Positions 3,348 to 32,300 of a stretch of 63,505 nucleotides of DNA are shown piece by piece. The stretch lies in the IMG/VR virus record IMGVR_UViG_3300025098_000035, positions 1 through 63,505 of that record; one strand, written 5' to 3'. The notes below the pieces were generated by a model that searched no databases, was not told where the DNA came from, and saw only the letters and a list, made by a program, of their open reading frames with translations. Origin of the DNA: a virus. How positions within the stretch are numbered: the stretch's first letter is position 1; each line of letters starts with the position of its first letter. Position numbers and translations under genes: made by a program.

Positions 3348-4646
3348 ATGTGGGGTAGTGCAATCGTTGGGGATGTGTATGATGCACCTGCTATTGTTGG
3401 TGATGACTTCACTAAAAGTGTGTACAACACTCTCACTCAACATCCCGATTATGTGCATAAGTCTGTACCGGTCAAAAAAGAATCAAGTTTATTTTTTAAT
3501 GAAGAGATAAAATCATATAACTTTCCCAAAAATGGTGATGGTTGGCTTGAGTCAACATACGGTAAAAACGCAGATTCTATAATTCGTATGTGTCGTAAAA
3601 TGCGAAGAAACGACAAAAGTAATCGAGATATGATTGATGCTATTATTGATGATGTGAGAACCATAAAAGCAATGGAGGTTGAAGCAACAATTAACAATTT
3701 ATCATGGAGTGATGGACTACATGACACTATTCGCTACATGGGGTTAAACGACCGTTCATTAAAATCACTGCGAAAGTTTGGAGAGTCGAGAAGCACAGGA
3801 CTTCAACAGGCTTGTCAAATGTTCTTGAAAGCCACATCTGTTCTTTCTATGTTAAATGAAATGGATGATTGGGGTGTAGAAGAACAAGAAAATTGGGTTG
3901 ATGCTATGCAGATGCGTAAGGATGCTCAAAAAATGTGGCGTGGAACTTTACATCAAATTGATTCTATTTCAAAAGACGATAAAACAACATTAGAGTTTGT
4001 TTCAAAACAATTGGATGAAAACGGTGAATTGAATAGTCGTGAAATTGTTCGTCGAGGTGTAGGTGTTCTACACAAGTCCGTTACGCCCAGTAAAGTCGGT
4101 ATGTTGATAAAAATGTACGGTGAAGAATTAGACATATACCGAGGGCATAGTCGTGGCATGTTTGTAAAAATGGGTACAAACGGTTTGATTATCAAAGACA
4201 TTTGGGCTTATGCGGCAGGTTTTCTTGATGCTGATGGTAGTATATTTATCAGTGAAAGAGGTGAACCAAGAGCGACATTTGTAGCAACTGGTGATAGAGG
4301 TAAAGACCAATGCGAAAGTTTGCATAAAGCACTTGGATGTGGTCGTTTAGTCCTTAATCAAAAAATACATAAAAATAGTAACCGAAGTCTTCACCGTCTT
4401 GTTTTTCAATCAAAAGACGATTTACGCCAATTACTCAAAGGTATTCTACCACACTTACAAATGAAATCGCTACAGGCAAAGGCTGTTTTGACATTCATTG
4501 ATTCAAAAGACAAGTTGAGAAAAGACGAATTACATAAACTCGTAACCTTCAATAATTGGAAAGATGATAAAAAGAAGGCCGACAACCTCTTGTCTAAGTG
4601 GGGCTTGGATGCTGATACCATAGGTGGATTTGCGGAGGGATTGTAA
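3348..4646 (+). CDS. Head-module protein with C-terminal LAGLIDADG endonuclease-like domain
   Basis: A 432-residue protein. The first roughly 280 residues are mostly helical and not recognised. From about residue 284 a LAGLIDADG-type domain begins: AAGFLDADGS at 289-298 has the glycine and acidic residues of the motif, followed by the usual beta-strand pattern (SIFISERGE, RATFVATG), a helix with LHKALGCGRL and the QSKDDLRQLLKGI region. Only one clear motif copy is visible, so it would act as a homodimer or with a degenerate second repeat. In an ordinary virus this position, between terminase and portal, holds a head gene, so the domain may be a fused or domesticated homing endonuclease. Its stop overlaps the portal start (TAATG). 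Confidence 0.8.
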   Translation: MWGSAIVGDVYDAPAIVGDDFTKSVYNTLTQHPDYVHKSVPVKKESSLFFNEEIKSYNFPKNGDGWLESTYGKNADSIIRMCRKMRRNDKSNRDMIDAIIDDVRTIKAMEVEATINNLSWSDGLHDTIRYMGLNDRSLKSLRKFGESRSTGLQQACQMFLKATSVLSMLNEMDDWGVEEQENWVDAMQMRKDAQKMWRGTLHQIDSISKDDKTTLEFVSKQLDENGELNSREIVRRGVGVLHKSVTPSKVGMLIKMYGEELDIYRGHSRGMFVKMGTNGLIIKDIWAYAAGFLDADGSIFISERGEPRATFVATGDRGKDQCESLHKALGCGRLVLNQKIHKNSNRSLHRLVFQSKDDLRQLLKGILPHLQMKSLQAKAVLTFIDSKDKLRKDELHKLVTFNNWKDDKKKADNLLSKWGLDADTIGGFAEGL

Positions 4647-6421
4647 TGGCAGACGATGATAGTAGAATAAGTAGATTTTTAGGCGCACTTGGGAAACCAT
4701 TCAAGCGTAAGCAATCCCCAACTCCTACCATGCCACTTTGGACAAGTGGTATTCAAGAACCAGTTATGGCGCAAGGAATTACCATACCTGCTTTGTATGC
4801 TGTAAGCACAGAATGTTTGATTCTAAGAACTGTACTTTCAAAAATACGACAAGAGATGTTCCGAAGAGGACATTATTTTGAAAAGCGTTTTCATAAAAAA
4901 TGTAACGATTGCGGTGAAGAATACCAACATGATGTTGAGTCTTGTACTACATGTGGCGGGCAAGTGCGTGACCCCGACCATGATGAATTAACTTATGTGA
5001 AATGGTTACTCAATCAAGAAAACAGTATGGAACAAGCGTTTATTCATATTCTAAATGAAATTGAAAATGACCTTAATATTGTTGATGATGCGTTCTTAAT
5101 TTTAGTCAAAGAGTATTATATTGACCCCGAATCGAAAGAAGTAGCGTTTTTCCGTGTTAAAGAACTTATTCGTGGCGACCCTATTTTCATGCGTATTGTC
5201 GCTGACAAGCGTGGTGTTCGTGGTGGGCGATACAAAGTCTGTCGAATCCATAGGGACCAAGTTAAGACACATGCAGAAAGTGATACCTGTGAAGTATGCG
5301 GTAGCGATTTACATGATGTTCATTATGTCAATATGGCCGGTAGTGGTAAAACACAGTATTTCATTGAAGGTGAAGTGCTTCACTTGAGTAAATACAATCC
5401 GTCTAAACTCTATGGTCGTTCACCTGTCAATACAATGTGGCGACAAGCAATGACACTTACAGCAATGGACAACTACATGTACACTTCTTATCAAAAGCGA
5501 AGAATGCCAAAAGGTATTATTTCAGTTACGACTGATAACCTTGAGTCAATGAAATCGTTTTGGAAGTCTGTTGATGAAAAAATGGAGCGTGACCCGCATT
5601 ACATTCCAAAGGTTGGTATTGAAAGTCAAACAGGCCGTGGTGGTGTCAATTGGATTAAGTTTATGGACACCTTAGAAGAGATGCAATATATCGCTGTTCG
5701 TGATGAAATACGCAATCGCATCGCCGCTTACTTTGGTGTGTCAAGCGTCTTTATGGTTGACAGTGGTAAATCCGGTGGTTTGAGCAATGAAGGTATGCAA
5801 ATACTTGTTACAAATCGTGCTGTTGAGTTTGGACAAAAAACTTACACCGAAGTTTTGTTTCCTAAAATGCTGAAACAAATGGGTGTTCACGATTGGAAAC
5901 TCACACTTTATCCGAATGAAGAAGAAGACGAAATTACTCGACTACGCCGTGATGAACAAGAACTCAATGTTGCACAGCGTATGACACAACTTGGATTCAC
6001 TGCTGATTTAATTGATGGTGAATCAAGTAGCGATATTCGATTCGTCTATCGTAAACCTCCACCTCAACCAGCCGCACCTCCGGGCGGCGCACCACCTCCG
6101 GGCGGCGCACCACCTCCTATGATGCCACCGGGCGGCGGTATGCCACCGCCTATGATGGGTGGCGGTATGCCAATGGGTGGCGCACCCATGATGAGAGGTA
6201 TGCCTCCGGGTATGCCAATGGGTGGTATGCCAATGCCACCACCTCAACCGGGTGGACAGGGTATGGGACTTCGTAATAGAGGGCCAGCCGCACCTCAACG
6301 CCGTACATCGGCTGGTAGTGGCTCTCCTGTAACAAGTGTACAACAAAGAGGGCCACAGCCCTCAATAGGACAACAAAATAGTAACGCTCTCATGAATGCA
6401 AGAAACTTCAAGGGTGCATAA
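4646..6421 (+). CDS. Portal protein with two zinc-knuckle insertions and Pro/Gly/Met-rich tail
   Basis: The portal is the ring at the capsid vertex through which DNA enters and to which the tail attaches. Portal-like features are the region HLSKYNPSKLYGRSPV, the helical stem-like segment around residues 270-330 and the crown helices with FGVSSVFMVDSGKSGGLSNE. Position after terminase and before protease and capsid agrees. Unusual are Cys residues 86, 89, 100 and 103, and Cys199, His202, Cys215 and Cys218, which look like two zinc knuckles. Residues about 475-540 are a low-complexity run of PPGG, GGMP and PMM units. Length is 591 residues. Strong GGAGG precedes the ATG. Confidence 0.9.
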   Translation: MADDDSRISRFLGALGKPFKRKQSPTPTMPLWTSGIQEPVMAQGITIPALYAVSTECLILRTVLSKIRQEMFRRGHYFEKRFHKKCNDCGEEYQHDVESCTTCGGQVRDPDHDELTYVKWLLNQENSMEQAFIHILNEIENDLNIVDDAFLILVKEYYIDPESKEVAFFRVKELIRGDPIFMRIVADKRGVRGGRYKVCRIHRDQVKTHAESDTCEVCGSDLHDVHYVNMAGSGKTQYFIEGEVLHLSKYNPSKLYGRSPVNTMWRQAMTLTAMDNYMYTSYQKRRMPKGIISVTTDNLESMKSFWKSVDEKMERDPHYIPKVGIESQTGRGGVNWIKFMDTLEEMQYIAVRDEIRNRIAAYFGVSSVFMVDSGKSGGLSNEGMQILVTNRAVEFGQKTYTEVLFPKMLKQMGVHDWKLTLYPNEEEDEITRLRRDEQELNVAQRMTQLGFTADLIDGESSSDIRFVYRKPPPQPAAPPGGAPPPGGAPPPMMPPGGGMPPPMMGGGMPMGGAPMMRGMPPGMPMGGMPMPPPQPGGQGMGLRNRGPAAPQRRTSAGSGSPVTSVQQRGPQPSIGQQNSNALMNARNFKGA

Positions 6422-6464: not shown

Positions 6465-6821
6465 ATGGATTTAATCAAAATGGACCCAATGGCAAGAAAA
6501 ATGGAAGAACACCAAAAAGCGTTTATCACCGCACTGACAACCGGTGATGCTAATTTGGCAAAACAACATTTGAATGAAGTACGCAAAGTTGCAGACTACC
6601 TTTCCGAAGACTTGTCTGCCGCTATTGCTAAATCGGAAAGTGGACTTTCACAAGGTCCAAACGACATTTACGCAGGTGGCGCACCAGTTATGAAGTTCGA
6701 CAACCGACCTGCTTCGGCTCAATCTCTTCAAGGACAGCGACTACAAGGCTCAACTCGTACAGGTGTTAAACCTTCAAACTATACTCGTGTAACTGGTACT
6801 TTTGGCCGTTACCAACAATGA
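6465..6821 (+). CDS. Hypothetical small virion-module protein
   Basis: Not recognised. The 118-residue product begins with two predicted helices (KMEEHQKAFITAL and NLAKQHLNEVRKVADYL, residues about 12-50) and ends in a polar, Gly/Ser/Gln-rich tail that looks extended. Its stop codon forms part of the next gene's Shine-Dalgarno (TGAGGTG at 6819-6825), so the two are probably translated together. Position after the portal suggests a head-assembly or connector accessory role, which is inference. The upstream Shine-Dalgarno is weak (AGGG). Confidence 0.78.
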   Translation: MDLIKMDPMARKMEEHQKAFITALTTGDANLAKQHLNEVRKVADYLSEDLSAAIAKSESGLSQGPNDIYAGGAPVMKFDNRPASAQSLQGQRLQGSTRTGVKPSNYTRVTGTFGRYQQ

Positions 6822-6831
6822 GGTGTTTATT

Positions 6832-7167
6832 ATGACTGAACAATCGGATGCGGAACGATTGATGGGTGTCCTTATTACTAAAATGGAAAGCATGGATAAT
6901 GACCTTGATTCACTCAAGAGAGAAAACATGCGCCTTCAAAAAATGATTTCAAACCCAACTAAAATGCTTAAAAAAATGGGATTAGTCAAAGCAACTACCC
7001 CGCTTACAGAAAATGTCATGAACGATGCATTCCGAAATGACATGACTGATGATTCAATAATGAAAGGGGTAAACTCTTCTGTTCCCCAAACTAATGAAGA
7101 GTTCCATAACATGTCGTGGGAGGATATTCACGAAATGGCTCTATCAGCAAAAGAGAATGAGGTGTAA
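6832..7167 (+). CDS. Coiled-coil protein sharing a C-terminal motif with the scaffold
   Basis: From the ATG at 6832, chosen because TGAGGTG lies just upstream, the product is 111 residues. Residues about 8-45 form a likely coiled coil (LITKMESMDNDLDSLKREN). Near the C-terminus is NMSWEDIHEMALSA, which closely matches the end of the protease-scaffold protein encoded at 13723-15114 (NMSWDEVHNLAG). Two proteins of one head module ending in the same short motif suggests both bind the same partner, such as capsid or portal. No enzyme domain is visible. An in-frame start at 6802 lacks a ribosome site and would overlap the previous gene. Confidence 0.8.
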   Translation: MTEQSDAERLMGVLITKMESMDNDLDSLKRENMRLQKMISNPTKMLKKMGLVKATTPLTENVMNDAFRNDMTDDSIMKGVNSSVPQTNEEFHNMSWEDIHEMALSAKENEV

Positions 7168-7169
7168 AC

Positions 7170-7643
7170 ATGAAGCCACGATTTGAACCAATAAGTTACG
7201 AAGTTAAACAAATGCTTGAAAAAGCAGAACGACTAAACAATCGTATAGAATTACTTGAAAAAGCAAAGTGTGATTGTGGTAAAGAGCCATGTAAATGTAA
7301 AGACTGTCCTAAATGTGGTTCTAAAATGAACAAAATGGGTTGCATGAAAATGGGCTGTGGTGGTAAAATGGAAAAGGCTGACCCTTTGGCTGACCCAAAA
7401 CCACTTCCAAAAGAAAAAATCACTGATGTAAACCCACACATGGTTACTGAATCCGGTGGACAAACAAAAACTGCTTACTATACTACCAACGGTAACACCA
7501 TTGAATATGAGGATGGTAAACCAAAGCGAGATAAACATGACAAGAAAGTTGACTTAAGTAAACTCGGTGGCCGCATGAATCCTCATGCTGGTACTGGTGC
7601 TGAAAGAGAAGACACAGAAGGCGGAACTGAACGAAAGTATTGA
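7170..7643 (+). CDS. Cys-rich putative zinc-binding protein
   Basis: A 157-residue protein with an N-terminal helix (residues 8-32, likely coiled coil), then a dense Cys region at about 34-65: CDCGKEPCKCKDCPKCGSK followed by two further Cys in KMGC repeats, consistent with one or more zinc sites. The C-terminal half is polar and probably disordered, with Asp, Lys and Gly repeats. Family not recognised. The Shine-Dalgarno GAGGTG lies inside the end of the preceding gene, and this gene's own stop starts the TGAGGTG site of the next gene. Confidence 0.78.
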   Translation: MKPRFEPISYEVKQMLEKAERLNNRIELLEKAKCDCGKEPCKCKDCPKCGSKMNKMGCMKMGCGGKMEKADPLADPKPLPKEKITDVNPHMVTESGGQTKTAYYTTNGNTIEYEDGKPKRDKHDKKVDLSKLGGRMNPHAGTGAEREDTEGGTERKY

Positions 7644-7835: not shown

Positions 7836-10800
7836 ATGGTAGCAGAACAATTCAATATCGCTAAAGACGAATTACTCCTTTCATTAGCCGATGGTAATGA
7901 CTTAGCGTTTAGTGCCGCTGAATACATTATTGCTTGGGAATCTCTTAACAAAGCCCCTACAGACACACTTTCAAAGTCGTTAAAATATACGGCTGAACTA
8001 ATTCAAAAAGAAGAAGACAAAGCCGCAAAAGTAGAAAAAGTCAAGTCCTATAAAGAAGGTCCGGGTTTTCTTCTTGCACATCATCATACTCATGGTGAAC
8101 AGACAAACCATGTTTGGAAGGACAGTTTATCGGGTGCTGACAATGTGAGAGAATCTCACGCTGTATGGCCTCGGTATGTACCTACTTCATCTCATCCATA
8201 TCGAGAGCATAATTATCCTTTTCACCATACTAATCACCCTCTTTTGCGAATGGACTCAAGTAAAGGTAATGCTGGTTATGTTGAAGTTTTACGAAGTCAT
8301 ATTTTTGGCGGTCATTCTAAAGAAGAAGCGCAAATGGAAAAAGAGTTTCAAAAGTATTTAGAAACGAAGAAAAGTCCATTGGTACACGGATATAACGGTA
8401 AAAAAATCCTCGGCTCGTTGAGACATCATAAATCAAATTATAGCCATCAACATGACCTTTACGAGCGAGATTACCAACGCTGGAATAAACTTAACAGTGA
8501 TTTGAAAGACCAGTATCTCGCTGATGGTCGTTCAGCAGAAGAAACTGAAAATCGTTTACGAGTGGACCATTTTAATCAAAGAGCAAAGCAGTGGCAAAGC
8601 GGCGGGTATGTTGTAGATGAAAACGGTGATAATCATGCTGTTGGATTAGGACAAGAGGGGTATCACCTTGGTCTTGAATGGCTTAATCCCGAAGAACGCA
8701 CAGCCGTAATGCGTCATCTACATGAAAAAGGAGTTGACAATCATAATGAAATAAAGTTACCAAATGGTGAGTTTATCCCTACGGCTCGATTGACTTGGAA
8801 CAATTTAATGCGTCGTACACCGGAAAAGAACTGGGCGTTAAGAGCAAGCGGTCACTTTGGCCCAAACGGTCATTTACGACAAGAAACACTTGAGGGTGAC
8901 TTTAGACAAGGTGATAACCGTTTTTCACAAGGTGTAATCGGAGAGGCGGCTCATACTTATGAAATAGGAGGACAACCAATTTCACATTACATTGCAGAAG
9001 CGATACATAATCGCTTTGGGATAGAACTGCCCGATGGTGATAATGAAGGAGTCGGGAAACCATTTGACATTCTACCAAGACTCGGTTTACATTCAAAGCC
9101 GGTTCAAGACAGTTACTCGTTGAAAGACTTACGGGCTGGTACATTTAAACACTATAAAAAATCAAAAGGAATGGACCCGAAGCATACTCGTATGCCAATG
9201 GAGGATGTTCTATTCCTTGCAGGTTATGACCCTAAAACACGAAAGCCGCTTCTTAATCACCCTATATACGGAGAAATGGATGGTCCGATTATCCCGCTTC
9301 ATGACTTAGAACAGATGGAGTCGGAGGCTAAATCTCATGGCTCTTTGTCTTCATTGGCTAAAGAGATGAGAACTGACCTCGCTTATTTACAATCTCCGCA
9401 TGGTCCTCATCCCGATGAAGAAAAACCTAAGTTTTGGCGATTTGATAAGGGTGGTAATCATACTATAGGACCAGCAAAGTTTTGGAGTAAACCTTTCGCT
9501 CAAGTTGGTGGTGCTGATATGACTTTGGCTACTTACAATGAGAATGTACACAGTGTTGCTCATAATGAAGACGAATTAACAGAAGAAGAAAAAATCGAAC
9601 AGGCGTATGCAAACATAGCGAGTAATGAGCCTGTGGATATTACCGGTGGGGCGCAAAACGAAGACACTGCACACATCCCAACTCCGTTTCAACAAAAAAA
9701 GAAAGACATGTCATCCCCCTCTACTTCGGGGTTATTTGAAGTAAATGAGCAACATCACGGCCAACTACACCCCAATCCAATTAACATGGCTTTAGGGATG
9801 CACTTTGGGCCGGAGAAATCAAGAGAAATAGGACAAGTTGAAAAACAAAAAGGAGGTGCTACCAAGTTTGTAAGGTTTCAAGACGGTGATATTCTACAAA
9901 ATCTATTCTCACCTGCTAATGCCTTTACAAAAACCAGTAGCGGTGATAAGCATAATTGGACATTACATCAATCAACTTACAACCCTCAACTACTACATTC
10001 TCTCCGTACAATGAGTAATGATGAAAAAAAGAAACTTAAAGTTGATACTATTAAACAAACTTTACATTCACATAATCCATTAAAAACATCTCAACCCGAA
10101 AGCACCTATGGAGCGCATACATCGGATGCACCTATTGGTGAGAAAGCAAGAGCAAATCATTGGCGAAAAACAATGTTGGGGCAAACATTAGACCCCTACA
10201 AACCGCAGAAAAACTCGGTTCAACCATTGAAGGACTTAATGAGTGGAAACATTCCTGTAAGTTTTGGAGTGGACCATGAGGATTACATGGATTTTTTGGG
10301 GTGGGGTGTTAAACAACCCAATTTTAACAATGTAAAAAACTACATTACTTCGCCGGATAGCGCAAAAGCCTTGCGTATTTTGACAGCAATAGCAAAAGAA
10401 ACTGGGAGTAATTCTCCTAATCGTATTCTAAACAACATTAACGATTTGACAGAAGACAACCCAATGTATGCTGATATTAAACATCGTATGGAAAAAGAGG
10501 GTTCATACCTTAACGACGGGGATATAGACGAACTTAAAGGGTGGTTAAATAGTTTTGAAGTACAATTACGGCAGAAAAAGGGTAAAGAGGCGGAAGCGAA
10601 AAACCAACGCAGTAAAACCAGCATTCAAGCAACAGAAGACACAACATTTACTACAAGAACTATTGACTCCGCATTGAAGTTTGGTGGTATGCTTCCTGCA
10701 ATGCAAAAAGAAAAAGAATTGAGTGAGCGATTGAATGTTATTACTGAAATGATACAATACATGGATTCACCGGAACAGGTACAATCATTAAGACGGGAAT

Positions 10801-13682
10801 TAGATGAAGGGCAAGTAGAATTGAATAGGTTACAACGCCGTTCAAGTGAATCTGCTCTTGGTAAACAACCTACACGCTGGAAAACCGATGCTGGTTTTAT
10901 TGACAAAGTGGCTAAAAATAGTCGTAACGCTGTCCTTGAAGCCGCAAAAAAATTATTACCTATAGTTATGGAACATGACCCAAATCATTTTGACATTAAC
11001 GACCCGGAGAAGTTTATGGCGAATCATAACCGTTTAATGTATGACGCTGAACGGTGGCTTGCAAATGCAGACCATAGTGTACACGGTATCAAAGCACCTG
11101 TTTACAGAACATCGGATGAAAGTAAAACAGTTACTTCAAAGCAAAAAGGCTTTCATCGTGATGTAATGAGTCACATGCTCGACAACAGTTTTGAATTAAA
11201 CGGTAACATGACACCCGATGAAGTCTTAGAAGGTATGGGATTAGAAGGTAAGACAAGTCAACAAAAAGCACGATTAAGAGAACATGTACAAAAAATAATT
11301 GATGAGTCAAATGTAAGAGAAGTTCCGTTGCGTGTTGCGACTGTCGGACAGTTAATGACGAGTGGTAATTTTGATGACGAGTTTTCACTTCATCGTATTC
11401 ACGCTGATGAACAATTCGCTCAAGACTATCAAGACGGTGGAATACACACTGCTATTGATAACGCTCAATCGAGAACTAAAAACTGGAAAGCACATCCTAT
11501 TCATGGTATAGTAGGTACTGTCGGACAGCATAGATTTGACTCATCGCAATATGGTAGTAATATGTCAAACAACGGTTTATCCTACTATCCAGCCGGTGGT
11601 AAACTCGATGTGCATAACAGATTAGGTGCTGGTAAAGGTGGTAAAAAGCCTTACACGAGAAGAACAAAAAATTACCTTGATAGTATTGTAAGTTTAGATA
11701 TTGATGCTGTAAATGCTGATAATATGACACCTACGCAAGAAATTGTGAGAACGCTTGGTATTAACGGTGAACCAGTACCTATTGGTGGGGTTAATCCTTC
11801 TTCATTCGGAATTATGCCTACACACACTGGTGCTGATGTAGTCCACTCTTCTGCTGTCCCTCAACAGTCATCATTTGGTATCGAGTTTGATTCTCAAGGA
11901 CAACCATCGGTCGGTACTTACACTGAACCTCAATTATACCATCCTACTTGGCAAGGTGCATTAGAGGAACTCCACGGCACAGATATGACAAATCATTTGT
12001 TGGAAACATTACCACCACATCAAAATCCTACTCCACCTTTTATGGATTATGACAAAGAAACTTTTGATATATTCGGAGAAAACAACCCTACTGCTCTTAA
12101 CTTGAGTGAAATGAGTGAATATATTACTTCTCTTTTAAATCCCGATGTGCTTTTGACAAAAGCCGATGATGCTGAATGGTGTCCTCCGGTAAGACCGATG
12201 CACCGCATATTCGATTTAAGTGACCTTGAACACCTAAGAGGGTTTAGCGGTTCATGGGTAGTCAGTAAGTGGTACGATGGTAAGCGAGTTATTATCGTAC
12301 AAAACGATAATGAAATCACTACTTATGATGAAAATGGGCGCAAGGTTGGATTAAAGAAAGCATTCAAAGAAAGCCTCGCTGAATTAAACGACAATAACTT
12401 TGTCATTGATGGTATTGTAGGTGAAGAAGACTTGAACATTATTGATATTATCAACTATGATGATACCAATGTTGCTGAAATGTTAATGCATGAACGCATG
12501 AAAGTTCTAAGAGGGCAGTTCGATAGCCATGAAAATGTCATCATTCCCGGCCCGCATGATACAAAAATGACTGATGATGAGGGTCTTGAAGACGCTGTTA
12601 AAATCCTACAAGAAGACCACGGTATAGTTTTGTTACGAGATAATAAATCCACATACATGAAAGGAGAGCGTCGTCATCCTAAGTGGTTGTTATTGCGTGA
12701 AAGTCGTGATTTTAACTTTATCATTCTTGACCGTCGAGGTAAAGGACCATACACATATCAACTTGGTGCAGGGCCGATTCTTGACGGTGAAGCATTAGGT
12801 AATCGTGCCGTCACATACAAGAACAATTTCTACATGGATGTAGGTACAGCCCACAGACAACAAAGAACCTTCAAAGTTGGCGATATAGTAAGAGCAACTG
12901 TAACAGGAGTTACAAAAAAGCGTAGAAAAAATCGAGATGTGTTCAATGTACAAGTGCGTGAAATAGAAAGTGAAGGTGAAGGTGAAGGTGCGGCCAGTGC
13001 TGAATCATTAGACCTTATGACAAAATCGTTTGCACCTTTGCTTATACCCCATGATATAGAATACAATGATGGTGTATTACAAGTTATACTCAAAGGTGTA
13101 GATACAGTATCGTATCAAGTTACACATATGGATGACAACTGGTATCTACATGACCCTTCTTCGGCTTTAGGTGATTTGACTAAATCGAATTATTCTCTCA
13201 CTCTTGCTGAAAGCCTTCATCCGTTTTGGCATTCAGTAGCACCGTTGATGCTTGACGGTCATCTCGTAAAAACAGAAATGGATGAAAAGAAAGTGCCAAG
13301 TCGTAAAAGACAAGAAGAACAATCAGCCGGAGTTCTTGATGCTAAAGACGATAACCGCCTTCTTAAACCATCAACTAAGAAGGCTCTTGATGTAATTAGT
13401 CGTGCTTTAGACAGACTCGCTAAAGAAAAACTTACTTGGACAGGGCCGAAAGGTTTGGGTATTGACATGGCTACACCGGTAGAATCACCAAGTGGTCCTA
13501 CGAGATTAACAGAAGAAAGTAACTTACCCGACTATGATGGTAAAGTAAGACCGGATGAAAAGGATGGTGTTGATTCGGATGATAAAAAGAAAAAACCCAT
13601 TACGCATGTTGAAATGAAGACTGATGCAGACGAGTCTATCGTTTTAGATGATGAAGACGGTACTCCTACTCTTTCAGTGTGA
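7836..13682 (+). CDS. Giant head-module protein with degenerate ATP-dependent DNA ligase-like domain
   Basis: A 1,948-residue protein between portal and prohead protease. The N-terminal part is unusually His-rich (HHHTH near residue 82, FHHTNHP, LRHHKSNYSHQH). Residues about 1,460-1,720 match an ATP-dependent DNA ligase core: motif I KWYDGKR at 1478-1484 (nucleophile Lys1478), motif III-like FVIDGIVGE at 1522-1530, motif IV-like HGIVLL from 1595, motif V-like KWLLLR at 1616-1621, then an OB-fold-like segment (FKVGDIVRATVTGV). The Glu of motifs III and IV and the first Lys of motif V are replaced, so ligation activity is doubtful. The 1,450-residue region before it is unrecognised and looks structural. 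The C-terminus is acidic and Lys-rich. It may be a virion protein carrying a nucleotide-binding or ligase-derived domain. Confidence 0.85.
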   Translation: MVAEQFNIAKDELLLSLADGNDLAFSAAEYIIAWESLNKAPTDTLSKSLKYTAELIQKEEDKAAKVEKVKSYKEGPGFLLAHHHTHGEQTNHVWKDSLSGADNVRESHAVWPRYVPTSSHPYREHNYPFHHTNHPLLRMDSSKGNAGYVEVLRSHIFGGHSKEEAQMEKEFQKYLETKKSPLVHGYNGKKILGSLRHHKSNYSHQHDLYERDYQRWNKLNSDLKDQYLADGRSAEETENRLRVDHFNQRAKQWQSGGYVVDENGDNHAVGLGQEGYHLGLEWLNPEERTAVMRHLHEKGVDNHNEIKLPNGEFIPTARLTWNNLMRRTPEKNWALRASGHFGPNGHLRQETLEGDFRQGDNRFSQGVIGEAAHTYEIGGQPISHYIAEAIHNRFGIELPDGDNEGVGKPFDILPRLGLHSKPVQDSYSLKDLRAGTFKHYKKSKGMDPKHTRMPMEDVLFLAGYDPKTRKPLLNHPIYGEMDGPIIPLHDLEQMESEAKSHGSLSSLAKEMRTDLAYLQSPHGPHPDEEKPKFWRFDKGGNHTIGPAKFWSKPFAQVGGADMTLATYNENVHSVAHNEDELTEEEKIEQAYANIASNEPVDITGGAQNEDTAHIPTPFQQKKKDMSSPSTSGLFEVNEQHHGQLHPNPINMALGMHFGPEKSREIGQVEKQKGGATKFVRFQDGDILQNLFSPANAFTKTSSGDKHNWTLHQSTYNPQLLHSLRTMSNDEKKKLKVDTIKQTLHSHNPLKTSQPESTYGAHTSDAPIGEKARANHWRKTMLGQTLDPYKPQKNSVQPLKDLMSGNIPVSFGVDHEDYMDFLGWGVKQPNFNNVKNYITSPDSAKALRILTAIAKETGSNSPNRILNNINDLTEDNPMYADIKHRMEKEGSYLNDGDIDELKGWLNSFEVQLRQKKGKEAEAKNQRSKTSIQATEDTTFTTRTIDSALKFGGMLPAMQKEKELSERLNVITEMIQYMDSPEQVQSLRRELDEGQVELNRLQRRSSESALGKQPTRWKTDAGFIDKVAKNSRNAVLEAAKKLLPIVMEHDPNHFDINDPEKFMANHNRLMYDAERWLANADHSVHGIKAPVYRTSDESKTVTSKQKGFHRDVMSHMLDNSFELNGNMTPDEVLEGMGLEGKTSQQKARLREHVQKIIDESNVREVPLRVATVGQLMTSGNFDDEFSLHRIHADEQFAQDYQDGGIHTAIDNAQSRTKNWKAHPIHGIVGTVGQHRFDSSQYGSNMSNNGLSYYPAGGKLDVHNRLGAGKGGKKPYTRRTKNYLDSIVSLDIDAVNADNMTPTQEIVRTLGINGEPVPIGGVNPSSFGIMPTHTGADVVHSSAVPQQSSFGIEFDSQGQPSVGTYTEPQLYHPTWQGALEELHGTDMTNHLLETLPPHQNPTPPFMDYDKETFDIFGENNPTALNLSEMSEYITSLLNPDVLLTKADDAEWCPPVRPMHRIFDLSDLEHLRGFSGSWVVSKWYDGKRVIIVQNDNEITTYDENGRKVGLKKAFKESLAELNDNNFVIDGIVGEEDLNIIDIINYDDTNVAEMLMHERMKVLRGQFDSHENVIIPGPHDTKMTDDEGLEDAVKILQEDHGIVLLRDNKSTYMKGERRHPKWLLLRESRDFNFIILDRRGKGPYTYQLGAGPILDGEALGNRAVTYKNNFYMDVGTAHRQQRTFKVGDIVRATVTGVTKKRRKNRDVFNVQVREIESEGEGEGAASAESLDLMTKSFAPLLIPHDIEYNDGVLQVILKGVDTVSYQVTHMDDNWYLHDPSSALGDLTKSNYSLTLAESLHPFWHSVAPLMLDGHLVKTEMDEKKVPSRKRQEEQSAGVLDAKDDNRLLKPSTKKALDVISRALDRLAKEKLTWTGPKGLGIDMATPVESPSGPTRLTEESNLPDYDGKVRPDEKDGVDSDDKKKKPITHVEMKTDADESIVLDDEDGTPTLSV

Positions 13683-13722
13683 AAGAAACATTCTATATAC
13701 CATGACAATGAATCGGAGGGTA

Positions 13723-15114
13723 ATGTTGTCCTTAAAGCGACCCACCTCCGGCATTGCTCTCATTAAGGGCAGTTCCGATATGGTTATCGCTGGCTACGCA
13801 TCAGTTGAACTGGTGGACAAGCAAGGCGACCTTATTACTCGTTCAGCACTAAAGGATGCATTTGGCGGATTCATGAAGAGTGAGAAGTTCCGTAATGTTC
13901 AACTCGCTCACTCAAATATTCAAGTTGGAGAAGTTATTGACTCCTATGTAGATTCAAATGGTCGGATGTGGAAGTCCGAAGTTGATGATGCCGGTATGTT
14001 TGTCGTTGTTTCACTTCGCAACGATATTGAAAAGGCTCGTGAAGTGGCCGCAGAAATCCGTAAAGGTAATCTGCAAGGATTTTCCATCGGTGGACAAGCA
14101 TTCAAGAGAGTGCGAAAATCGGATGGGGAACATGGAGACTACCAAGAAATTAGTAAAATGGAACTGCACGAAATAACGATATGTGAAAAAGGGATTAACC
14201 CCGAAGCGCAGTTTCGTATTTTAAAGGAGGACACCCACATGACAACAGAAAATGATTTGAATAATGTAATGAGCAGACTTGAAGCACGACTTGACGCTAT
14301 GGAAAAAGGCGAAATGCCTCCCGGCCTTAAGGAACATATGAACGATAAAAAAGACGATTCCGACGATGAAAAGAAGGAAAACCCATTCGCCGCAAAAAAA
14401 GACGAAGAAAAGGATGACGAGGATATGAAAGACGACAAAATGTATGCAAAGAGCGAGTACAGTGATGTAATTACTGCTGAATACCTAAACTGGATGGAGG
14501 ACACTCTCAAATCCGCTGGTGTTGACACTATGCAAGCACGAACACACTTCGATAATTTGGAAAAGGCGCAACTTGGCGGCTTCGACAACCCCGATGCTGT
14601 TGATGGTGCTGACTACTTCGCCGGACAAGTCCGAGGTCGAGGTCAAGAAAACGGTTCACCTTCAACCGGTGCAATCTCCGCAATCTCTTCAACTGGTGGT
14701 AAAACACCATCCGGCGCACTTGGGCCTGTTTCAATGGCTAAGGGTTACATTAACCCAAGCAATGTTTCAGCATCCGATGTTGAAGCCGCTTACGAAGTTT
14801 ACAAAGCCGCCGCAATGGAACAAGGATTCCGTGGCGACCTTGAATCTCAATTCGCATCTCGCTTTGCAGAAGAACAAAAAATTGCAAAGCATGAAGCAGA
14901 AAAAGCCGAGTTCGACGCTCGTGCGCCTCTTAACGAAGTCATGAAGTCAATTAACGCACTAAGTGAGCGTATTGATAACATTGGTATTCAAGGAACATCA
15001 ATTCAAAAGTCGGCTTCTTCATCTAATGTTGAAGTCCCATCCACACAAGACTTGAGTAACATGTCTTGGGATGAAGTACACAATCTCGCCGGTTCGGTCA
15101 TTCGAGGGGCTTGA
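13723..15114 (+). CDS. HK97-type prohead protease fused to scaffold
   Basis: This 463-residue product matures the capsid. The N-terminal ~165 residues match the U35/S78 prohead protease fold: GYASVELVDKQGDLI at the start, catalytic His63 in VQLAHSN, catalytic Ser121 in GFSIGG, and the closing KMELHEITICEKGINPEAQF segment. The rest is a scaffold: a short coiled coil, an acidic Asp/Glu/Lys stretch (about 205-250), helical regions and the C-terminal motif NMSWDEVHNLAG. I chose ATG 13723, preceded by GGAGGG; an upstream in-frame ATG at 13648 overlaps the previous gene and has no ribosome site. An internal start at 14239 probably makes the scaffold alone. Confidence 0.92.
   Translation: MLSLKRPTSGIALIKGSSDMVIAGYASVELVDKQGDLITRSALKDAFGGFMKSEKFRNVQLAHSNIQVGEVIDSYVDSNGRMWKSEVDDAGMFVVVSLRNDIEKAREVAAEIRKGNLQGFSIGGQAFKRVRKSDGEHGDYQEISKMELHEITICEKGINPEAQFRILKEDTHMTTENDLNNVMSRLEARLDAMEKGEMPPGLKEHMNDKKDDSDDEKKENPFAAKKDEEKDDEDMKDDKMYAKSEYSDVITAEYLNWMEDTLKSAGVDTMQARTHFDNLEKAQLGGFDNPDAVDGADYFAGQVRGRGQENGSPSTGAISAISSTGGKTPSGALGPVSMAKGYINPSNVSASDVEAAYEVYKAAAMEQGFRGDLESQFASRFAEEQKIAKHEAEKAEFDARAPLNEVMKSINALSERIDNIGIQGTSIQKSASSSNVEVPSTQDLSNMSWDEVHNLAGSVIRGA
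14239..15114 (+). CDS. Probable nested scaffold protein from internal start
   Basis: Within the protease-scaffold gene, AAAGGAGG at 14224-14231 lies just before an in-frame ATG at 14239 (residue 173 of the full product), exactly at the protease-scaffold boundary. This would yield a 291-residue scaffold beginning MTTENDLNNVMSRLEARLDA, without the protease. Lambda makes its scaffold Nu3 in the same nested way from gene C. The ribosome site is one of the strongest in the window, which argues for real use. Expression of the shorter form is inference. Confidence 0.6.
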   Translation: MTTENDLNNVMSRLEARLDAMEKGEMPPGLKEHMNDKKDDSDDEKKENPFAAKKDEEKDDEDMKDDKMYAKSEYSDVITAEYLNWMEDTLKSAGVDTMQARTHFDNLEKAQLGGFDNPDAVDGADYFAGQVRGRGQENGSPSTGAISAISSTGGKTPSGALGPVSMAKGYINPSNVSASDVEAAYEVYKAAAMEQGFRGDLESQFASRFAEEQKIAKHEAEKAEFDARAPLNEVMKSINALSERIDNIGIQGTSIQKSASSSNVEVPSTQDLSNMSWDEVHNLAGSVIRGA

Positions 15115-15146
15115 AAATAAAAAAAAAATAATGGAGAGTGAAATAT
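15115..15146 (+). promoter_or_regulatory. A-rich leader and ribosome site of the capsid gene
   Basis: The short gap before the capsid gene is an uninterrupted A-rich stretch followed by TAATGGAGAGTGAAATAT and the ATG. The same arrangement, with nearly the same bases, precedes the next gene at 16284 and is seen nowhere else I noticed. It probably provides an unstructured, highly efficient translation start for the most abundant virion proteins; it could also be part of a promoter. Confidence 0.55.
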
Positions 15147-16247
15147 ATGGCACGAGACTACATACGAAGCGTAACTGACATGGAACGGTACTTTTACGGT
15201 GCTGGTAATGCAATGGGATATTCCTACAGCGGTAGCGAATTGCTCAAGGCTGACAGCCCAATGATGAGTACTACAGCAGGAACTTACCAAGCGATTTATG
15301 GTCGCAAGGTTTGGTCGCAATTGAACCAAGAGTTCAATGCATTCTCAATTCTACCAAAGCGACCTTGGGAACGCAGTGGATGGCGAGTCATCACTGAACG
15401 ACCTTCGTTCAGCGTTGGTGGCGGTGTTGCAGAAAACGCAACTCTACCGGACACTACCAAGCCTACCTTCCAACACATTGCCGCAAAGCCAAAGACGATT
15501 GTTCACACATTCGACATGAGCGAAACCGCAATGTTCCTTGCTGACAAGGATGACGGACTGGGTGACATTCGCTCAATCCTCAAAGAAGAAATGGGTAAGC
15601 ACCACGCCGAGCATATCAATAAAATGTTGCTCGTTGACAAGGCTACCGTTGCTGGAAACGATTTCGAGTCTCTTGACCGTATCGCTACTGGCCTCGTTGC
15701 TGGTTCAGCAGAAGACATCTACTCGATTGACCGAAGTGAAAACTCTTGGTCTGTTGCAGAAGAAGACTCCAACGGTGGTACTGACAGAACTCTTTCTCTC
15801 GACCACTTGGACAGTATTTTCCAAAAGTGTTGGACTCGTGGTGGTAATCCAAAGGTTATCCTCACTGGATATGACACTTTGATGCGCCTTCAACAACTTC
15901 TACAATCGCAACAGCGTTTCATGGAAGAAAAGCGTATCACCCCTACCTACAATGGTGTTAAGGGTGTACCGGGAATTGAAGCAGGATTTATCGTTGCTAC
16001 TTACAACGGTGTTCCTATCATCCCATCTAAGGATGTTCAAGCAGACACATTGAGCCGTATGTATTTCCTCGACACGGATTACCTCTACTTCTCTACTGCT
16101 ATCCCAACGCAATACTTTGAGTCCGGTATCGAAACCGGCGACCCATTCGCAATCAACCGTCTTGGACAAGAAGGAATGTATCGAACTATGGGAGAACTAT
16201 GGACTACTTTCTTCGGAGGACACGCTTCAATTCGTGACCTAAAGTGA
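15147..16247 (+). CDS. Major capsid protein, HK97 fold
   Basis: The 366-residue shell protein. It follows the protease-scaffold gene directly and has the size and pattern of HK97-fold capsid proteins: an N-terminal helical arm, a strand-rich E-loop-like segment (GWRVITERPSFSVGGGVAEN), a spine helix region (DIRSILKEEMGKHHAEHINK), a P-domain with PKVILTGYDTLMRLQQLL and a closing EGMYRTMGELWTTFFGGHASI region. The start at 15147 is preceded by GGAGAGTGA; a GTG nine bases earlier is less likely. The shared A-rich leader suggests very high expression. Confidence 0.92.
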   Translation: MARDYIRSVTDMERYFYGAGNAMGYSYSGSELLKADSPMMSTTAGTYQAIYGRKVWSQLNQEFNAFSILPKRPWERSGWRVITERPSFSVGGGVAENATLPDTTKPTFQHIAAKPKTIVHTFDMSETAMFLADKDDGLGDIRSILKEEMGKHHAEHINKMLLVDKATVAGNDFESLDRIATGLVAGSAEDIYSIDRSENSWSVAEEDSNGGTDRTLSLDHLDSIFQKCWTRGGNPKVILTGYDTLMRLQQLLQSQQRFMEEKRITPTYNGVKGVPGIEAGFIVATYNGVPIIPSKDVQADTLSRMYFLDTDYLYFSTAIPTQYFESGIETGDPFAINRLGQEGMYRTMGELWTTFFGGHASIRDLK

Positions 16248-26340: not shown

Positions 26341-29300
26341 ATGGTAGGGATAGGTAGAACAAGCAACGCTTTCTTTTTTGATGGCGTTACTGATTCAATA
26401 CTTATCCCTCAAGGTAACTTTACCAGCGTAGGACCAGCACGAGATATACTTGGGAAAACAAGTAGAGGCGGTGACGAGTTTACACATATCAACTCTATCA
26501 TGGATGATAGTTTTGTTATCGAAGCGTGGGTAGTACCGGACTGTGGTGGTATAGTCGCACACCGTGATGAACAATTTACTCTTGAGTTTGGTACAGTAGA
26601 TACACCCGGCCCTGCTAAGTTTACTGTACAATTAAAAACACAAAGTGGTATGCATCCTGTTTCCTTAAGCACAGCCAAGGCTACATCAACACGATGGGAT
26701 GGAGTGGTTTACCCGCCGCAAGAAGTAGGTGGAATACATGATACCTACAATAGATACTTGAAAGACAATACCGCTTACAACGATGCTACAAACCTCAATT
26801 TCAAACACCGTGGATTGTATCATGTAGTAGCAGGAGTTACAGCGGGTTCTGTTTTTTTGTATGTCAACGGACATGTTGTAGCAACGCAAGAAATTGACAT
26901 TGAAAGTAGAATAGCAGACTCAACAGCACATGTGTACATCGGCGGTAAAGGTGGAGAGTTTAGAGGGGCTATCGAGGCTATTCACTTTAATAGTGAGTTC
27001 GATTCGCAAATGGCTGTAAGTACTGTACCCGTCAACAGTGATACAACAAAAGGTATGTATCGCTTTGAAGAACCACTGGATATTGTAGAAGAATCCTATG
27101 ACTTTAACGCCTTTACTGTAGCCGCTGATGGTACGACAACTACCATTACCGTAGCCGCTACTGACGCTCAAGCCCTCATTGCTCGCTTGACCGGTAAACC
27201 GTATGACAGCACCAGTGCTACAACTACATTCACAGCCACTCCTTACAGTATGGGTAACTACAAAGTTACCGATTTTGCCACCACACCCGGCACAGAAGCG
27301 ACACTTGCTATACCTCATACCCCATACAACATTCTCATCAATCCGGGTTCTATTAACCGGAATACGGAAAAACCAAACGCTTCTCCGCCGGAAAGAGCAA
27401 GAATAGAGTCAATTAACGGTTCTACTGGGGTAATCACAGTAAGTAGTATTCACATTGATTTTAACATTAGTGGGGGTAAGCGGGGGCTATTACATTCCCG
27501 TACTGCTGATATTGACAACTACTTTGTCGTTGTAAATGCTGATTTGTTGATTGATAATGGAACAGGTAAGCCGTATCAACCTCCACACTACGGTAGTCAA
27601 ATATTTGATAAAACGGGTCAAATGGTGATTGACGAGAGTAACTTTTCACAACACGCATTAGTGTACTCTACTCAAATGGCTACTACTGATAATTCACCAA
27701 GCAACCCGTTTGCTGTTTCTTGGCCTTCTACATTGGATGTTTTGTATCAAGTAGGACACAGTGGGCGACATAGATATTCTCATATCACAGGTCATGAGTA
27801 TATGCGCCGCTATCCTCAACCCGCATACCTCTCAATAGACCAAATCATGGGTGGAACGGCAGATGTTGTTGAAATGGGATATGACAGTAATACAAAGGGT
27901 ATTGCTGATTTGTTTGCAATGAACGCTCTATCCGACTTCTATGAAGAAAGTACACAGGTGACAGTGGCTAATTTTATCAATTCGACACCTGCAACTTTTG
28001 TAGTGTCAAATGGTTTAGCAAAAAGTAAAGAGCAAGCCATTGCTATTGGTGGTACAAACTTTGATTACCGCCCATTTATGCTAAAAGGTCCAGTACCGGA
28101 GTTTGAAGGTGACATCAATGATGATACACGGTTGTATCATTTGCGACCGGAAAGTGTGAGCCGTATTGCTTTACTCAAAGTTCCTACTCTTCAAACCACA
28201 CATAGCCTTGCACCGTATGTTGAGATACACTACAATGCGGTTGACTTGACTGGTGCGAGTATGGGTAAAACAACACCTTGTTTGATGATAGAAAAGACTG
28301 TACCGAGTGGTAATTATGTTCTTACCGGCTCTACTACAGTGCTTGATGTCATTGAGGCAGACTTAGCCGATGCTACAAAAGACACCACATTGTTTGCACC
28401 CGGTGGCCTCATTATGACAGGTAACAGTCAAACGACCACTACACATCATTTAGAGACAGAACATTCGTTAATCGGTGATAATACCGGAGGGTATGAACTT
28501 GACAGTGAAGTAGATTTTAGTCGTTGTCCTGTCAATTATACGCCACCCGGTAACGCAACAACAGATGGTAATACAACACCTCAACACCTTACAGCGTCAC
28601 ATAATAACGGCGTACACGATTCAGCATATCATAAATTATGTATAGAACCAAATGCTGATAATTCTGTTAAAAATATGACTGAAATAGGTTTACAGTCTAT
28701 TAAACCGGCGGCTGTAATCAATACTGGTACAGGAGTATTCGATGAAGGTTCAACTACTGATGCGAGTAATAACTTTGAAATGTTTGACATTATAGATAAT
28801 GTCGTCTATAATACACACGAGTATTCCGGTATTATATTTGTTCAGCCATCCGACAGAACCCGAACAAATCAGTTATCGAAAATGCGTACAAATCAAACAG
28901 AAGGTAACTCACCAAGTATCGCATCGTTACTGTACCTCATGAGCCGCACTCGTATTCGCTCAATAAAAGAAGACGAAGACCCCGGTACAAATGAAAAAAC
29001 CGTCACTGTATTGGCGACGGGTATCGCAGAAGGACTCGCTAATCAAAATGTCAACATCACCGGTAGCGGCTCACCGGATTCACACATCGTCAAAGAGATT
29101 GAGCCAAACGCCCCTGTAGTTACTGTAACACTTGGCGGGCCGGGGCAGGGTGCGATTAACACCAAACCTACCTATGACCCAAGCCCGCTAATGCGATTAC
29201 CCGGCTCAACCCGCCGTAGTTGCGCTGTACAGGCTGTGAGTGTCAATACTGATACCGATAGGATATACATGTCAGTTCAACCCCTCAATAACCTGTCAAC

Positions 29301-32300
29301 AGATATGGCATCGTGGGGAACATATTGTTTTCCAAAAGTAGGTCGTGTTTACCTTGAAGACGGGGCAAGTGCCGCCTATAGCGAAAAAACTGGTAGTGGG
29401 TTTGTGTTTACTGTTGATACAAGCGGTGGGGCAAGTATAGAAGAACTAAGGTCGTTTTTAGATGCAAACGGTACAGCCTACACATCATTTCATGAATGGT
29501 TAAACGGTGTTGGTATTATTACAAATGCCACAGAAGATGAATATGAAATAAGTGTAAAACTATTCAACGACCCTCACTTTGGTGATGACAACCTTTGCGA
29601 AGACGGTAGTACAGTAAACGATAGAATGTTCCAAAGTATGGACACTGTTAATCATGATTATCAATTGGGTACGCAATATGCCAGTACTCGTGCAATGGTT
29701 GAAGTTCCTCTTTTCCCTAAGCAGTTTTTCGACCACGCACCTACTGGTATTTTCCCCGGACCGGACAACAGTATGAAAATACACCTTGATGCTACCTATA
29801 CCGCACACTCATGGAATCCAACTCCTGTCGGTCGTCGGGCAGACGACATCGCTGTAAGCGACCGTAATGCTCATTCAGCATACGGGTTTAACGCAAATAG
29901 TAACGAGCATGTATCATCAACCACTATTACTCAAATCGTAGTAAGTACTAATCACACTGACATATATGTTTCACACCCAAAGTTATTCCCAAGTGCTGAA
30001 TCAGCGGAGAATCAGCATAGAAACATGAAGGATGTAATACGCTATCGTCGTGTTTTCCTGTCAAACAACCAATGGGGTATATACCAAAACGACCCTGCTA
30101 CTGATGGCTATATTCGCATCCCGACCAATGTATCGGGTGGTTTTACTGGTGGCTTTTCGGAGGACTTCTTCGCAGATGCTATTGTAGGTGCTTTACTGTA
30201 TGTAGCGGGTGGTTATCGAAACGAAACGCTTATTCCAATTGCATCGGATGAAAGTACACCGTCATCCGACTTAGAAAATCGCTCACCTTACTATTACGAC
30301 CCCGCCAACATGCAAACTCAAGGCGGCAACCTCGATTACGGATTGCGTCAATATGTAAGCGCAGTGGAGTTCAAAGAAGGACCGCTTACCAATCCCCACG
30401 CCCCTCGCATACAATCAAAGAACGCTTCATCAACTATTTTAGAAGTAAACAAAGTATCTGCGGGTTTAGACAATAATCAGTCACTATATTATTTTACTGT
30501 TGATGATGCATCTACATTCCCCGAAGTGCCGTTTAGTAAAATAGGTGGTTATGAGACTGATTCCAATAATCCTACATTCGGGAATGGTGATATGATATTT
30601 GTTGCCGAAGTTCTCACTGACACGCCTATCGAAATGATTTTTCTCGGAAACATTGCAAGTGTGAGTGAAACGGCAAATCAATTTGTCTGCGCCGCACCTT
30701 CAAGTTTTTCTACAACTAATTTTAAAGGTAAAACAATACGATTGAAAAAAGCCTGTCGTGCTTTGTATTCACTTACTGACCCTGCTAATGCTTACATCAA
30801 TGAGTTTAGTGCGACAACTTTCAAACCATCGGTAGGTGGTGAGCAATGGACATTTACAGCGGCGGGTGCGGTAGGTGCAACTACTCTTTCGATAGCACCT
30901 GCAACTGCTACTCTTATGCCACAGGCCAATACTGTAGGTATCAACCTTCGACCGGGTGATGAACTCTTTATAGAGGATGTGAGTGACGCTAATCACATCA
31001 AATATGTAGGAAAGGTTGCATTTATTGAATCACCGTATGCTGGTAGTGGACACGCTACAAACACAGTAATTACACTTGATGGTACTAATGCAACTACTAT
31101 TGCATCCGGCGACCCGTTGCGAGTAAGTTTTGGAACTGTTACTGAAAACGACCCCGATGCTATCCTCAACCGTACATGGTTATACCCTTATGCTCAAGGC
31201 GGGCTACGAAACGGTGATACCATATGGATGAACATGACAATGAATAACCCTCATGCTGTTGAAGGGTTGTTTGCTAAATCTCGTGGTGTGTTAAGCGAAG
31301 GTCAAGTTTGGACAGGTTTTAATGGCGGAAAGGGTGCTTTAGCGACTCGACCTCGTGATTCTATACCACTTGAAAACTTTTTAATTGGAGATTCATGTCT
31401 TGAAACCGCCAACAACTTTGTTCAACATGTAAACAAAACCATTGAATTAAATTACGAATCAATGGGACTATCATCATCTCAAGCACCGACTGTTGCTTAT
31501 CTCGACCCTTATCTCGCTACCAAAGGCCACGCACGAGTTTTGATGTTTGATGTAGCACACGACCGTGAGTTCATTGCTTTCCATGATTTACATATGCAGG
31601 TTCAATCGAGTGCCGCTACACCGCACATCGGTTTCGGTCGGCACATTGTTACTGCTGATGGTATTGTAGATATTGACCGATACTTGGTGCAACAGAATGG
31701 TGGCGCACCGCATTACTTTACTACTCAAATAGATGTAGCAAATGGTTTCCCAAGTGAAAATCCATACATGCGTAGAACACAGCAATCAAAGTTTATTGAA
31801 AGTGCATATGTGCATAACATAGCAGGTAACACATCCGAAGATGTAATGGGAACGAATGCTGGTGGTGAAAACCCAATTAGTAATTTCTTGAATCATGACT
31901 CTTATGCTATACCCGGTCAAGGGAAAACAAAATTAGCACTAATAGGAAACTCGTTTACCGAAGCATGTGATACCGACCATGCCGCTACGGGAACTGATAC
32001 TCATGTATTTGGTGGTAATGTAAGAATTATACGATTGAATGGTACTATTGGTATAAGATTGAGTAAGTTTTCAGTGGGTATGACTGTAAGCGGAACGGGT
32101 ATAGCAAGTGGTTCTAAAATTATTGAAATAGATATCAATGCAGGTTTGTTGTATCTTGATAAGGACACTACGGCAACCAATTCAAATCAAACATTAACAT
32201 TCACTACGACAAATAATTCGTACTTTATGGGTAAGGGTCACGGTCATTATGTTCATACTGGTTTTATGAATGAAGGAACAAGTAGTTCTTTCACTGTTGC

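Follow-up and report, generated by a model that had tools for sequence, protein, structure and literature searches.

Why does a tailed virus encode a DNA-ligase-like domain inside a large protein of its head module, and could that domain still act as a ligase? The question was raised by a 63,505-base viral record (IMGVR_UViG_3300025098_000035, positions 1 to 63,505), the whole of which is referred to here as the window. The plus strand of this record encodes TerL, a portal protein (PF04860), an S78 prohead protease and the major capsid protein, and the minus strand encodes a TCP-1-type chaperonin, a family B DNA polymerase, a clamp-loader-like ATPase and a DNA methylase; sequence reading alone additionally pointed to PCNA-like and ERCC4-like proteins. 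The nearest capsid protein from isolated viruses belongs to the haloarchaeal Druskaviridae (e.g. HVTV-1). This gene set fits a magrovirus (i.e. a tailed virus of marine Group II archaea), with the Group II archaeal host being assigned via gene content and the literature. The features of the window that bear on the question are as follows.

4646..6421, plus strand: portal protein, PF04860 (Pfam)
7836..13682, plus strand: 1,948-aa head-module protein with the ligase-like domain (open reading frame)
7836..11135, plus strand: N-terminal ~1,100 residues, mostly alpha-helical (AF2 mean pLDDT 79)
12171..12740, plus strand: NTase (adenylation-like) domain, residues 1446-1635, predicted to be catalytically dead
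12267..12287, plus strand: motif I remnant KWYDGKR, residues 1478-1484, with W1479 at the nucleophile position
12402..12419, plus strand: motif III remnant VIDGIV, residues 1523-1528, with I1527 in place of Glu
12621..12698, plus strand: motif IV-V block GIVLLRDNKSTYMKGERRHPKWLLLR, residues 1596-1621, with the Glu/Lys of motifs IV/V lost
12741..12971, plus strand: OB-fold-like domain, residues 1636-1712 (AF2/Foldseek)
12972..13679, plus strand: C-terminal tail with a conserved GPKGLGIDxxTPxESPxGPT motif, partly disordered
13648..15114, plus strand: prohead serine protease, PF04586, S78 (Pfam)
15138..16247, plus strand: HK97-type major capsid protein, homologue of HVTV-1 gp120

The open reading frame at 7836-13682 was found to be real, on the plus strand and 1,948 aa long, and its homologues comprise 192 distinct proteins with lengths of 1,613-2,147 aa. 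Its predicted location between portal and prohead protease was borne out by Pfam (PF04860, PF04586), and three small proteins are encoded ahead of it at 6465-7643. Amongst records in which the neighbours were visible, a portal gene lay upstream on the same strand in 267/267 distinct cases, at a gap of 1.0-2.1 kb, and a prohead protease gene lay directly downstream on the same strand in all 200 distinct cases, at a median gap of 17 nt. The gene is co-oriented with both and occupies the portal-protease interval of a tailed-virus head module. Searches of isolated phages by tblastn, from which records very near the window were possibly left out, detected no homologue of the domain (E<=1) or of the whole protein (E<=10), and none of nine pattern matches in cellular genomes (i.e. 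proviruses) was confirmed. In one relative (L414:1037-6543) the big protein is spread over two overlapping frames of 1,007 and 838 aa, an arrangement that could stem from a frameshift or from the gene being truly split; among BFVD structures the top match, A0A516LT18, has 827 aa, which can be compared with the 838-aa frame.

The presence of a ligase-like domain on the C-terminal side of this protein was upheld and the domain was placed at residues ~1446-1712. A C-terminal piece of the window protein matched PF01068 with E=2.8e-4, which is under the curated cut-off, and the same family was matched in all 42 relatives of the family alignment (best E 1.9e-7). Comparison of the family profile with the PDB identified the archaeal ligase 4eq5 (E=1.8e-5). 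Structure prediction, which had been proposed as a check, produced an AF2 model that keeps the nucleotidyltransferase fold, with a pLDDT of ~85-93 across most of the NTase region, and whose top Foldseek matches were archaeal ATP-dependent DNA ligases (E=8.7e-13, probability 1.00) over an alignment of ~360 columns, enough to cover the NTase plus the OB domain. Because of these Pfam, profile, AF2 and Foldseek matches, the ligase fold is taken to be real and far beyond chance, and residues ~1446-1712 are predicted to adopt an ATP-dependent DNA-ligase fold, NTase then OB, in ligase topology. The same order and fold occur in the archaeal ligases of Thermococcus sibiricus (4eq5) and Pyrococcus furiosus (2cfm; Foldseek E~1e-12), which align with the domain at the motif IIIa region (IIDIINYD / LFDILYVD) and the ER-K segment. 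In contrast to these ligases, the domain lacks the nucleophile Lys, the motif III Glu and the motif V Lys, forms part of a ~1,950-aa head protein, and is linked to no identifiable N-terminal DNA-binding domain.

Catalytic motifs were compared across 181 unique homologous NTase domains and 192 distinct full-length proteins. Ligase motif I reads K-x-D-G-x-R, and the K, DGE, EG and KxK residues were invariant in five motif-complete viral ligases that served as a positive control. In the window motif (K1478-W-Y-D-G-K-R) the Lys lies three, not two, residues ahead of the D in DG, and it is W1479 that falls on the nucleophile, both in PDB ligase (4eq5) alignments and in a profile-profile alignment with the five viral ligases. 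The original prediction had reported that the nucleophile Lys was kept whilst the Glu residues of motifs III and IV were replaced, as was a motif V Lys; the replacements were confirmed, and the retained nucleophile proved to be an error of register. The nucleophile column contains W, M, Y, F, H, L or Q and K in 0/181 domains, so that the lysine of the supposed KxDGxR match is not conserved, and the K1478 column contains K in 72/181, the rest having V, A, H, I, T, D, L or S. KxDGxR itself does not occur in the 1,948-aa protein of the window or in the ligase region of any of the 192 full-length homologues, whose complete sequences yield a single match, in one protein and outside the ligase domain (residue 186). 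The motif III Glu column has I, V, T, F, M, L or A in 181/181 domains (E in 0/181), and the first motif V Lys column is hydrophobic in all 179 domains with a residue there (K in 0/179), with K being present at the second motif V position in 26 homologues. The motif IV Glu column is variable (E in 38/181) and the motif IV Lys is replaced by Arg in 179/181 (R1601 in the window protein). No intermediate with intact ligase motifs was found among the 192 full-length homologues, and the window protein lacks the catalytic residues of an ATP-dependent DNA ligase enzyme (i.e. motif I Lys, motif III Glu and those of motifs IV/V). As all homologues have lost the nucleophile, the motif III Glu and the first Lys of motif V, a ligase reading is unsupported and, judging from sequence, the domain would be unable to be adenylated or to seal nicks.

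Constraint on this pseudo-ligase domain was examined through pairwise dN/dS, which was 0.014-0.08 for the NTase as compared to 0.02-0.32 elsewhere in the protein, the NTase being the lowest part in most pairs and several saturated comparisons being left undefined. Residues G1482, R1484, D1602, S1605 and Y1607 are present in 181/181 domains, and M1608, G1610, E1611, P1615, K1616 and W1617 in all or nearly all domains having a residue there. There is a near-invariant block in the motif IV-V region (RDxxSxYMxGExxHPKW), and an ER-K--R segment (R1554, K1556, R1559) is nearly invariant. Such values point to strong purifying selection, and the domain appears to be no decaying relic. The OB domain is missing from 36 sequences, which retain the NTase with its RDxxSxYMxGExxHPKW signature and are monophyletic on the NTase tree (support 0.999). 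The net charge of the NTase is negative (26 K+R versus 36 D+E) and the OB domain is basic (14 K+R versus 7 D+E). For the N-terminal part, Pfam, PHROGs, PDB sequence and Foldseek searches gave nothing convincing, with the best Foldseek match of the first ~1,100 residues against the PDB being no better than E~1. PF01068 is the only Pfam family matched in the 1,948-aa protein; the Mu gpF domain (PF04233) is absent from it and is not among the weak Pfam matches of N-terminal members.

The best explanation, to which a probability of roughly 0.64 is assigned, is that a catalytically dead ligase fold has been reused as a docking or structural module of the head protein. An archaeal/viral-type ATP-dependent DNA ligase (NTase plus OB) would have been captured into a very large magrovirus head-module protein, would have lost adenylation and nick sealing, and would now persist as a binding module devoid of catalysis within a protein that is produced alongside the head and probably built into it. 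The remodelled surface near the old motif IV-V loop (RDxxSxYMxGExxHPKW) would most likely dock on a conserved partner, which may be placed in the procapsid or portal region, and the helical N-terminal part would make up most of a head protein that is structural or internal. Of the earlier proposal that a dead ligase fold has been redeployed in the virion, the dead fold and the head-module gene agree with the synteny and purifying selection described above, and we infer that the protein is present in the procapsid or virion of these uncultured magroviruses. The preserved surface would be a site for docking on protein rather than DNA, a preference that is weak and stems from the negative net charge of the NTase and from the OB-less clade. 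With R1484 and R1601 (replacing the motif IV Lys) retained, some capacity to bind nucleotide or DNA may persist, and the basic OB domain, where present, is compatible with DNA contact. T4 RNA ligase 1 (gp63, Rnl1), an active ligase that also attaches tail fibres, had been offered as a precedent. The likeness, that a ligase protein of nucleotidyltransferase fold takes part in virion assembly, is a loose one, since Rnl1 is a small, active RNA ligase acting at the tail fibres whereas the present domain is DNA-ligase-like, predicted to be inactive and encoded in the head module.

A packaged enzyme that seals nicks or adenylates through K1478 or another Lys, which was the other possibility originally raised, is very improbable. 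The weak Pfam match, the published annotation of a magrovirus ATP-dependent DNA ligase and the conserved lysines elsewhere (K1556, K1616) would be in keeping with such an enzyme, but these two lysines align to ligase positions outside the catalytic motif lysines, K1478 is poorly conserved, the catalytic residues detailed above are missing in every homologue and the OB domain is absent from a whole clade. Ligases bind DNA via their NTase and OB domains, and the protein might accordingly be a non-catalytic clamp that grips duplex DNA at a nick, an end or a portal-held terminus, perhaps by residing inside the head as a protein that keeps hold of the genome end and may accompany the genome into the cell. 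The basic OB domain, the motif I Arg, the nearly invariant ER-K--R segment and the proximity of the gene to that of the portal would all suit a clamp; this reading is nevertheless considered unlikely, as the 36-sequence clade keeps the NTase signature without an OB domain, the NTase is net negative and no linked DNA-binding domain was recognised in the protein.

Other tailed viruses carry variable enzyme domains in the portal-protease region, and a packaged cargo or effector in this MuF position, delivered into the host with its ligase fold adapted either to a new activity or to the binding of a host factor, was also considered. A parallel is HVTV-1 gp115 (Druskaviridae), a large 1,313-aa protein whose gene lies a short way upstream of that of the prohead protease and which likewise bears enzyme-like domains, although these are zeta-toxin and ADP-ribosyltransferase domains instead of a ligase fold. 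An effector is quite unlikely for the magrovirus protein, in which the pseudo-ligase domain is the most constrained part, unlike diversifying effector ends, and the N-terminal part has no detectable homology to HVTV-1 gp115 or gp113. Within the HVTV-1 region itself (L285; KC117377, 64229-72563) an HExxH segment was noted by eye in gp113 beside the zeta-toxin and ADP-ribosyltransferase domains of gp115, so enzyme-like domains may be common in this slot in archaeal tailed viruses.

Reuse of a dead ligase fold in the head protein also bears on published annotation. A DNA ligase is described as being encoded by almost all magroviruses (PMC10160649), and the ICTV profiles of Apasviridae and Aoguangviridae count an ATP-dependent DNA ligase among the genes that imply replicative independence (PMC12999244, PMC10768690). 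This published ligase is very probably the same gene as the head pseudo-ligase, because one 678-bp read with a match to a group A magrovirus spans part of an 'ATP-dependent DNA ligase' gene and part of a 'prohead protease' gene (PMC7318539), placing the two side by side. The published gene is treated as a replication or repair enzyme, whereas the head-module gene studied here lacks the catalytic residues. Among 48 magrovirus records of up to 115 kb, PF01068 matched the head gene only in 47, and standalone ligases were therefore rejected as the source of these matches; as the completeness of the records is uncertified, the case against a second ligase is strong, though short of absolute. The exception (record G026) encodes the head pseudo-ligase plus a separate ligase with intact KFDGVR, DGELY, EG and KVK motifs, possibly a secondary gain:

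L367:1222-2361 (record G026): standalone 379-aa ATP-dependent ligase, with a PF01068 match at bases 12920-13522

Neither NAD-dependent ligase (PF01653) nor RNA ligase (PF09414) was detected in 14 records. By its residues, the magrovirus 'ATP-dependent DNA ligase' appears to be a reused fold and not a working ligase in nearly all records checked. Since the only ATP-ligase match is predicted to be dead in 47/48 records, nick sealing is probably performed by the host or, in one record, by the separate ligase. This would correct an annotation used to argue for the replicative autonomy of magroviruses, an abundant group in the ocean, as ICTV profiles and magrovirus surveys count the ligase as a sign of little or no need for host replication factors. 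A narrow literature search matched no papers on catalytically dead DNA ligases. The locus would clearly exemplify the recruitment of an enzyme fold to a head-module protein that is under strong selection, and it offers a conserved surface that is precise and testable. We lean slightly towards a broader proposal in which these proteins form a family of virion pseudo-ligases, common in viruses of marine Group II archaea and annotated as replication ligases; a repair-enzyme fold would have been frozen after loss of catalysis, would now serve in capsid or portal docking or in holding the genome end, and would later have dropped its OB domain in one lineage.

Further observations were made on other proteins of the window. 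The tail module contains a 6,115-aa open reading frame (26341-44688), two pieces of which were searched and matched no Pfam family at E<=0.001. The protein encoded between terminase and portal (3348-4646) had no Pfam match at E<=0.01 and has a LAGLIDADG-like C-terminal segment, AYAAGFLDADGSIFI. A similar C-terminal motif occurs in a small protein encoded ahead of the 1,948-aa protein (6802-7167) and in the prohead protease (13648-15114), reading HNMSWEDIHEMA and SNMSWDEVHNLA, respectively, and can be compared with NMSPEDAW in the product of 2306-2647. The motif common to the small protein and the protease is possibly a head-binding tag or a scaffold segment.
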